Assembly: GCA_027002265.1 (NCBI GenBank)
Contig: JAMOTM010000077.1
Location: 1 to 64,000, forward strand
Origin: Aquificota bacterium
GTDB taxonomy: Bacteria; Aquificota; Aquificia; Desulfurobacteriales; DQVG01
Direction of reading: 5' to 3'
Length of the DNA: 64,000 bases
The notes under the pieces are model-generated. The model did no database searches. It saw only the letters and a program-made list of their open reading frames with translations, and was not told the DNA's origin. Position numbers and translations under genes: made by a program. Below are positions 57,853-60,349 of the stretch, one piece after another; the stretch's first letter is position 1, and every line of letters begins with the position of its first letter.

Positions 57853-58908
57853 ATGAAAGATTATTTTGAAGGAGCTGTTTTAGGGGCTGCTATTGGAGAT
57901 GCCCTTGGAGTTTTAACTACAAACTTAACTAAAGAAGATATAAAAAAATTATATAAAAAAGATATTATAGATTCTTTTTGTGAGCCAGCCTCAAAATCTG
58001 TTTTACCACATTTAAAAAAGGGTATGTACTCTCATAAAACTCAAATGCTTAAAATGGTTTTGGAAAACTTAGTAAAGTATTCCTATTTTAATCCCTATGC
58101 CTATATAGAGGATTTAAAAAAATGGGTAAAAGATGAAAAAAATCATAGATATCCTTCTCCCGGACACTTAAATGCAGCTTTAGGATATTTAAATAATTTT
58201 CCATCTATGGAAACCGAGGAAATGAAAAAATTAAAAAAATACGCAGAAGAAAATATTTTAACGCCAAAAGAAGAAGCAGCTTTATGGGAAAAACTTCAAG
58301 TGGCTCCTGTAAAATCTTCGGATATTGATGGAGCTTTACCTTGTTTAGTATTTGGACTATTTAGATATTATGACTTAGATAGCGCATATGAAATGGCTTA
58401 TCACTTTGTTTCTTTAACGCATAGTAGTGAAATTGTAAAAGACATTGGAGGTATTTATGCTGTTGCTACAGCTTTAACGGTGTCTCATAAATATGATTTT
58501 ACAAAAAAAGAGTTAAAACTTGGATTTTTAGATGAGCTTTTATCTTTTTCTCAAAATCAAGAGGTAAAGGAGCATTTAAATTTACTTTATAATCTTATAA
58601 AAGAAGATGTAAATGAACTTAAAGCTCAAATTACTTTGGGAAATTCTTCCTATGCTACAGAAAGTTTTTCCTTAGGTCTTTATTATTTTTTGACTTATCC
58701 TTTGGATTTTAAAACTTGTGTTGTAAAAGCTGTAAATGCTTGTGAATTTGTTGAAGGGGATATGAGCGCTATTGGGTATATAAGTGGTTCTTTAAATGGA
58801 GCTTATAATGGATACTCCAAAATTGATAAAGAATTTTTAGATGAACTTGAAGATGCATATGAACTTAAACTTCTTGCAGATAAACTTTACGAACTTGTAG
58901 GTCATTAA
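57853..58908 (+). CDS. DraG/ADP-ribosylglycohydrolase-fold protein, probably catalytically altered
   Basis: DYFEGAVLGAAIGDALGV N-terminus and ISGSLNGAYNGY C-terminus; canonical TDDT and GDTDT motifs absent. Confidence 0.75.
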   Translation: MKDYFEGAVLGAAIGDALGVLTTNLTKEDIKKLYKKDIIDSFCEPASKSVLPHLKKGMYSHKTQMLKMVLENLVKYSYFNPYAYIEDLKKWVKDEKNHRYPSPGHLNAALGYLNNFPSMETEEMKKLKKYAEENILTPKEEAALWEKLQVAPVKSSDIDGALPCLVFGLFRYYDLDSAYEMAYHFVSLTHSSEIVKDIGGIYAVATALTVSHKYDFTKKELKLGFLDELLSFSQNQEVKEHLNLLYNLIKEDVNELKAQITLGNSSYATESFSLGLYYFLTYPLDFKTCVVKAVNACEFVEGDMSAIGYISGSLNGAYNGYSKIDKEFLDELEDAYELKLLADKLYELVGH

Positions 58909-58930: not shown

Positions 58931-60349
58931 ATGATACCAAGATATACTACAAAGGAAATGGGAGAAATTTGGAGTGATAAACGTAAATTTTATAACTGGT
59001 TAAAAGTTGAACTTGCGGTTTGTAAAGCTCAGGAAGAATTAAAAAGAATCCCAGAAAATACTACTTTAGAAATTGTAAAAAAAATTCTTCCTTATTTAGA
59101 ACCAAATTATCAAAAAGATTTAATAGAAACTTTAGAGCTTCCCTTAAAAGTAGTTAAGCAAGAGAAAATTTTTGATATAAAAAGAATAGAGGAAATAGAA
59201 AAAACTACTAATCATGATGTAATAGCTTTTTTAACTTATTTAGAGGAAATTTTAGGGGATATTTCAAAATATATTCATCTTGGTATGACCTCTTCTGATC
59301 TTGTGGATACAGCCTTTGCTCTTCAGATAAAAGATGCTTTAAATTTAATAGAAAAAGATATAGAGCAAACTTTAGAAATTTTAAAAACCTTAAGCTTAGA
59401 ACATAAATTTACCTCTTGTATTGGAAGAACTCATGGAATTCATGCTGAGCCGATGAGTTTTGGTCTTAAATTTCTTTTGTACTATAACGAGTTTAAAAGA
59501 CATCTTCAGAGACTTAAGGAGGGAAGAAAAAGATTCTACGCTGGAAAAATTTCCGGAGCTGTGGGAACTTTTGCTCATCTTCCACCTCAAGTAGAAGAAA
59601 GAGCATGTGAGATTTTAGATATTCCTTATGAGGAAGTTTCCAATCAAGTAGTTCAAAGAGATAGACATGCAGAAGTTTTAAACTTTTTGAGCTTAGTAGC
59701 TGCAAGTATTGAAAAAGTGGCCACTGAAATTAGACATCTTCAAAGAACCGAAGTTAGAGAAGCAGAAGAGCCCTTTAGAAAAGGTCAAAAGGGGTCTTCA
59801 GCTATGCCCCATAAAAAAAATCCTATTATTTGTGAGCGTCTTTGTGGACTTTCAAGATATGTTCGTTCAAATGCTATTGTAGGTATGGAAAATGTGGCTC
59901 TTTGGCATGAAAGAGATATTTCTCATTCTTCTACAGAAAGAATTATTTTTCCGGATAGCTTTATAGCTTTAGATTATATGTTTAAAAAACTTTTAGATAT
60001 TTTAAGGGATTTAAAAGTATATAAAAGAAACTTAGAAAGAAATTTAAATCTTTTAGAAGGTTTAGTTTTCTCTCAAAGGGTTCTTTTAGCTTTAATAGAG
60101 AAAGGTAAACTTAAAAGGCAAGAAGCTTATAAGATTGTTCAAGAAAATGCTTTAAGAGTTTGGGATATTTTAAATAATGATGATGTAAATAAATATAAAG
60201 AAGGTAATGAACTACTTTTTTATAAATTTTTAAAAGAAGATGAAAGAGTTAGAAAGATTTTAAGTGAAAAAGAATTAAAAGATCTTTTTAAAGTAGATTA
60301 TTATCTTAAACATATAGAAGATATTTATAAAAGAGTATTAACTACTTAA
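58931..60349 (+). CDS. purB: adenylosuccinate lyase
   Basis: MIPRYTTKEMGEIWSDKRKF, HLGMTSSDLVDTA, RTHGIHAEP, GSSAMPHKKNPI, HSSTERIIFPD. Confidence 0.96.
   Translation: MIPRYTTKEMGEIWSDKRKFYNWLKVELAVCKAQEELKRIPENTTLEIVKKILPYLEPNYQKDLIETLELPLKVVKQEKIFDIKRIEEIEKTTNHDVIAFLTYLEEILGDISKYIHLGMTSSDLVDTAFALQIKDALNLIEKDIEQTLEILKTLSLEHKFTSCIGRTHGIHAEPMSFGLKFLLYYNEFKRHLQRLKEGRKRFYAGKISGAVGTFAHLPPQVEERACEILDIPYEEVSNQVVQRDRHAEVLNFLSLVAASIEKVATEIRHLQRTEVREAEEPFRKGQKGSSAMPHKKNPIICERLCGLSRYVRSNAIVGMENVALWHERDISHSSTERIIFPDSFIALDYMFKKLLDILRDLKVYKRNLERNLNLLEGLVFSQRVLLALIEKGKLKRQEAYKIVQENALRVWDILNNDDVNKYKEGNELLFYKFLKEDERVRKILSEKELKDLFKVDYYLKHIEDIYKRVLTT

Follow-up and report, generated by a model that had tools for sequence, protein, structure and literature searches.

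To our knowledge, pseudoenzymes with the ADP-ribosylglycohydrolase (ARH) fold are known mainly from eukaryotes, with ARH2 and the crystallins as examples. The metal site of the active enzymes is built from E ... [ST]DDT ... DTDT in ARH3 or E ... SDDT ... DSDS in ARH1 (PMC6309922; PMC7050489), and a single mutated Mg ligand is sufficient to abolish the activity of ARH1 or ARH3 (PMC6309922). In the vertebrate heart pseudoenzyme ARH2 (ADPRHL1) the catalytic residues have been lost while a non-enzymatic role is maintained (PMC4990356). The gene described here lies in a window of 64,000 nucleotides from a contig of an Aquificota bacterium. It occupies positions 57853–58908 of the forward strand, including the stop codon, and encodes a protein of 351 residues from an ATG start codon.

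Fold and active-site residues of the window protein

The window protein matched the PF03747 profile at positions 1–286 of 287 with an E value of 4.2e-38 and a score of 132 bits (cut-off 26.2), which places it in the family. An AlphaFold2 model obtained with 71 orthologues as input gave a pLDDT of 93.6 and a pTM of 0.90, and revealed the all-helical ARH fold. A first-pass annotation, made from the sequence of the window, had proposed this fold and called for a structure prediction; the proposal is borne out by both the profile and the model, and the strings quoted in that annotation, GAVLGAAIGDALG, GMYSHKTQM, EGDMSAI and ISGSLNGAYNG, are all found in the protein. When the model was compared with solved structures using Foldseek, many ARH structures were matched with a probability of 1.00. 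The best match was the hypothetical protein MJ1187 from Methanocaldococcus jannaschii (PDB id. 1t5j; TM 0.79/0.92), followed by DraG and ARH3, with TM values on the query of about 0.70–0.73 for LchARH3 (Latimeria) and RruDraG (Rhodospirillum). MJ1187 is the closest solved structure in both sequence and fold, and its N-terminal sequence is similar to that of the window protein up to NLTKE-IKKLY; however, MJ1187 carries E23, TDDT and GGDTD, none of which is intact in the window protein. A TH motif is common to the window protein, ARH3 and DraG, and an LGN loop is shared with ARH3. The scores for the DraG equivalog TIGR02662 (42.8, cut-off 337) and the Tri1 equivalog NF041672 (24, cut-off 490) were well below the thresholds.

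ARH3 (human or Latimeria) and DraG require a dinuclear site formed from E, DDT and DxD, and in the window protein this site is dismantled. Alignment placed Thr23 (57919–57921, forward strand, as for all features of the gene) at the position of the Glu-flap glutamate, E28 of DraG and E41 of ARH3. Residues S60-H61-K62-T63 (58030–58041) replace [T/S]DDT in the orthologue alignment, and E301-G-D-M-S-A306 (58753–58770) replaces GGDTD[AST], D303 being kept and the bridging aspartate D305 being a serine. The dinuclear pattern E ... [ST]DDT ... DxD[TS] is consequently absent, and the ADP-ribose contact motif GNGxxMR is replaced by D157-I-D-G-A-L-P163 (58321–58341), so that NGxxMR reads IDGALP. Five of the seven metal-site positions have changed (E23T, D61H, D62K, D305S and T306A), so that S60 and D303 are the sole usual metal ligands still in place. 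The first-pass claim from SHKT and EGDMSA that most of the binuclear-Mg ligands are lost is therefore correct, and "all" would be wrong because D303 and S60 are kept; loss of the Glu-flap glutamate, the IDGALP replacement and the alteration of the N-terminal DD motif across the phylum go beyond it. The TH motif (T189-H190) is intact and D16 is also present, and weak binding of a single metal is possible because D303, S60, D16 and H190 remain. A genus-specific helical insertion lies within residues 115–150, approximately (58195–58302), where the alignments of all relatives contain a gap and model confidence is weaker, with block means of about 66–82.

Both genomes of the window genus also contain a second PF03747 gene (G000:C55 and G001:C125), a compact canonical ARH encoded on the reverse strand at L085:4033–4878 and L086:4272–5105. 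This paralogue carries WTDDTS, CGNGSxMR, TH and GDPDT, and its nearest solved structure is the Listeria ART-ARH immunity protein 8za7. The two copies are 58% identical between the congeners, below the conservation of the putative pseudoenzyme. Among the canonical paralogues D61 and D62 are present in 12/12 sequences, as are G159 and R163, and N158 is present in 11/12.

The orthologue in the congener, genome G001, is 81–82% identical to the window protein and has the same SHKT and EGDMSA motifs; the substitutions are not sequencing errors, because the two genomes were assembled independently. Comparison of the two genes gave a dN of 0.134, a dS of 0.926 and a dN/dS of 0.145, which together with the second genome rules out sequencing error or a pseudogene, and the nucleotide identity of 80% lies near the top of the 71–83% spanned by the longer surrounding matches. 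Segments of the former pocket, picked from the motifs by the analyst before counting, are identical at 105 of 114 positions (92%) compared to 181 of 237 (76%) elsewhere (Fisher p 2e-4; as high in 5 of 351 circular shifts). The loss of ligands from a gene that is maintained supports well the pseudoenzyme reading first offered from the sequence.

Distribution and history in the Aquificota

Orthologues were identified in 123 of 136 Aquificota genomes, including 87 of the 88 good genomes (completeness of at least 90%), and the gene is a vertically inherited, single-copy core gene of the phylum. All of the orthologues examined (71/71) matched PF03747. In the gene tree, which was obtained by a short search and contains long branches, each family formed one monophyletic group as expected under vertical descent, and the window genus was placed with a support of 100 as sister to the orthologues of the Desulfurobacteriaceae, within the clade. 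The stem of the genus is long (0.98) and its tips are short (0.08 and 0.13), giving fast change on the stem followed by constraint. Outside the Aquificota one distant archaeal canonical relative was found by a pattern scan that required GGDTD and to which GDMSA forms are invisible.

The ligand positions were tabulated from an alignment of 75 orthologues. Position 61 is D in the Aquificaceae (24/25), S in the Hydrogenothermaceae (21/21) and H in the Desulfurobacteriaceae (21/21), the three families share E at position 62, and the variants SDET, SSEF and SHET occur across the phylum where TDDT would be expected. NGxxMR is missing from all 75 sequences, family f4 retaining the arginine only. As the second aspartate of DDT is a glutamate and NGxxMR is remodelled throughout the phylum, the clade in its entirety counts as a non-canonical ARH and only the final ligand loss is specific to the window genus; the substitution pattern that the first-pass annotation had described for one protein did not arise in a single event. 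Because E23, E62, D303 and D305 are invariant across the three families, a metal is probably still held in most of the clade. Relative to the rest of the clade the window genus has changed at E23T, E62K, T304M and D305S; position 23 is a glutamate in every aligned orthologue of f2, f3 and f4 (the three families above, named through sequence matches to named records) and in genome G131, and a threonine in both genomes of the window genus. An orthologue clade sharing SHKT/GDMSA had been put forward as a further check, and among the 75 aligned sequences no such motifs were found beyond the window genus.

Five of the six aligned genomes of family f5 have also lost ligands (D16A/S, E23H/C, S60P, D303A/I and D305A/S, with E62 kept), and the sixth, G131, has E23, E62, D303 and D305 intact. 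The alignment indicates that the remaining carboxylates were lost twice independently, in the window genus and in most of f5. Together these sequences would form a bacterial pseudo-ARH series with intermediates, from a canonical relative through a site remodelled phylum-wide to two independent losses. A second PF03747 copy is present in both degenerate lineages and also in G014 and G059, which show no ligand loss, and its correlation with ligand loss is suggestive only. In f5 the canonical copy carries PPTDDT and GGD(T/A)DT, G131 having a different canonical one, and at loci L056–L060 degenerate motifs such as GGATAA and PAEV were seen alongside the canonical second copies.

Gene neighbourhood and hfq

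In the window the ARH-fold gene is followed after 22 bp by purB (58931–60349, forward strand; PF00206 and PF10397), with which it is probably co-transcribed. This adjacency had initially been taken as informative but does not hold, because in G001 the gene lies between a PilZ-like gene and an argJ-like gene (names read from sequence); even the congener lacks the linkage to purB. Outside the Desulfurobacteriaceae, hfq lies directly downstream of the ARH-like gene, on the same strand, at no fewer than 47 of 58 loci. The distance from the ARH stop codon to the hfq start is −11 to +31 bp, with one exception of 127 bp, and a GGAGG at the ARH stop codon is often positioned as the hfq ribosome-binding site. 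The spacing in the Aquificaceae and Hydrogenothermaceae (L117–L186 and L031–L116) resembles translational coupling. A neighbour scan found no conserved partner gene across families other than hfq.

The pairing is not universal. It is missing in the Desulfurobacteriaceae, yet the carboxylates are retained there; at two loci read in this family hfq follows miaA, and in one of these an hflX-like gene comes next. Within f5 the gene pair is present in G131, and the degenerate genomes show Hfq matches on other contigs, the match in G134 being weaker. At L044, L049, L143, L146 and L155, from Hydrogenobaculum and some Aquifex relatives, hfq is not beside the ARH gene, and those of the genomes that were searched carry Hfq at another place.

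A Pfam search detected Hfq in 130 of the 136 genomes and in 87 of the 88 good ones, the sole exception among the latter being the genome of the window, G000. The same search did not find Hfq in G001, and the absence in both is read from draft genomes that are 95% and 64% complete. An Hfq protein query also gave no match in G000 and G001, in a run that had no positive control, the Pfam search having matched in 130 genomes. Both genomes contain miaA, with no hfq beside it in G000, and in the window the place directly downstream of the ARH-fold gene is taken by purB. The Desulfurobacteriaceae related to the window genus mostly have two or three Hfq matches each. A long-branch orthologue (L070) with D61G belongs to G092, a genome that is 76% complete and in which likewise no Hfq was seen.

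Other partners were considered and rejected. The genome of the window contains no macrodomain partner. An obligatory supply of substrate by Sir2 was likewise rejected: Sir2 occurs in 46 of the 54 good genomes, the three searched genomes of the Hydrogenobaculum group (g16) lack it while keeping the ARH gene, and the two are therefore not tightly linked. The open-licence papers searched contained no description of the ARH–hfq gene pair, and a paper on Aquifex Hfq mentions neither an operon nor ADP-ribose.

Possible functions of the window protein

The window protein is likely to be a catalytically dead ARH pseudoenzyme from an hfq-linked clade that has been kept for a binding role, its ancestral role having presumably been in the Hfq pathway. 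The ancestor would have been an ARH-fold core protein of the Aquificota, usually encoded just upstream of hfq, probably holding a metal on E23, E62, D303 and D305 and, to judge from gene order, plausibly serving Hfq-related RNA metabolism. The four substitutions on the genus stem would have dismantled this residual site, and the genus, where hfq is also undetected, would have retained the protein in the absence of Hfq. The joint loss of hfq and ligands is seen in one genus and two genomes only, and it is weakened by f5, which lost the ligands but kept Hfq elsewhere in the genome, and by the Desulfurobacteriaceae, whose carboxylates persist in the absence of the linkage. The window protein should be unable to cleave ADP-ribosyl bonds through the known dinuclear mechanism and most likely lacks hydrolase activity. 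The old pocket may now bind instead of cleaving, its ligand being an ADP-ribose-like nucleotide, an RNA end or a protein partner, with K62 perhaps occupying the former position of a metal cation and pairing with D303. The role of ADP-ribose reader suggested by the first-pass annotation is one possible form of this. ARH2 offers a parallel in combining the ARH fold with lost catalytic residues, but it is a vertebrate heart protein acting in actin assembly and its orthology to the bacterial clade is unsupported.

The invariance of H98, N264 and N295 in all 71 aligned orthologues, both degenerate lineages included, would suit an enzyme with a rebuilt site (H61, K62, D303 and perhaps H98) that acts on another nucleotide-sugar substrate with no dinuclear Mg centre, as would the pocket being the best-conserved part of the protein in the window genus and the occurrence of H61 in the carboxylate-bearing Desulfurobacteriaceae. 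Such altered chemistry is rather unlikely, since both metals are needed for known ARH catalysis, E23, the proposed general acid/base, is a threonine, and the two degenerate lineages share no alternative catalytic set (P60, A/G61 and E62 in f5). Conservation of the old pocket also argues against a pure scaffold, in which the fold would be a structural part of some bigger complex, comparable to the mitoribosome assembly factor mt-SAF23 and, apparently, to ARH-like chains of the chloroplast FtsHi motor. These eukaryotic chains have the same fold inside large assemblies and are likened to the window protein by profile and fold, through a match to the mt-SAF23 ADP-ribosylglycohydrolase chain 6sga_FP (E 7e-4) and fold matches to 8xks_Q and 8xqw_G. 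As the only conserved partner gene found across families is hfq, which is undetected here, we regard a scaffold as improbable. The coincidence in one genus of missing hfq and missing ligands could also be read as the decay of a gene that became dispensable once hfq was lost and is drifting towards a pseudogene, but the frame is open in both genomes, and the low dN/dS and the nucleotide identity, high for its surroundings, make this extremely improbable.

The preferred reading of a retained binding protein can be extended, with a low probability, to a dedicated Aquificota protein of the ARH fold whose translation is coupled to that of Hfq and which would reverse or read a mark, made of ADP-ribose or derived from NAD, that is carried by RNA or by Hfq itself; after the loss of Hfq this protein would have been turned by the window genus from an enzyme into a dead reader with a new role. 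Through the pairing with hfq, a fold of the ADP-ribose type would be connected with RNA regulation, and a concrete partner is named. The results most worth following concern the clade as a whole, a remodelled ARH whose gene is coupled to hfq in much of the phylum and in which terminal loss occurred twice independently. A second Hfq-like match was observed in many Aquificota (G055, G100, G129, G130 and others), and in several of these the alignment is interrupted by a stop codon.
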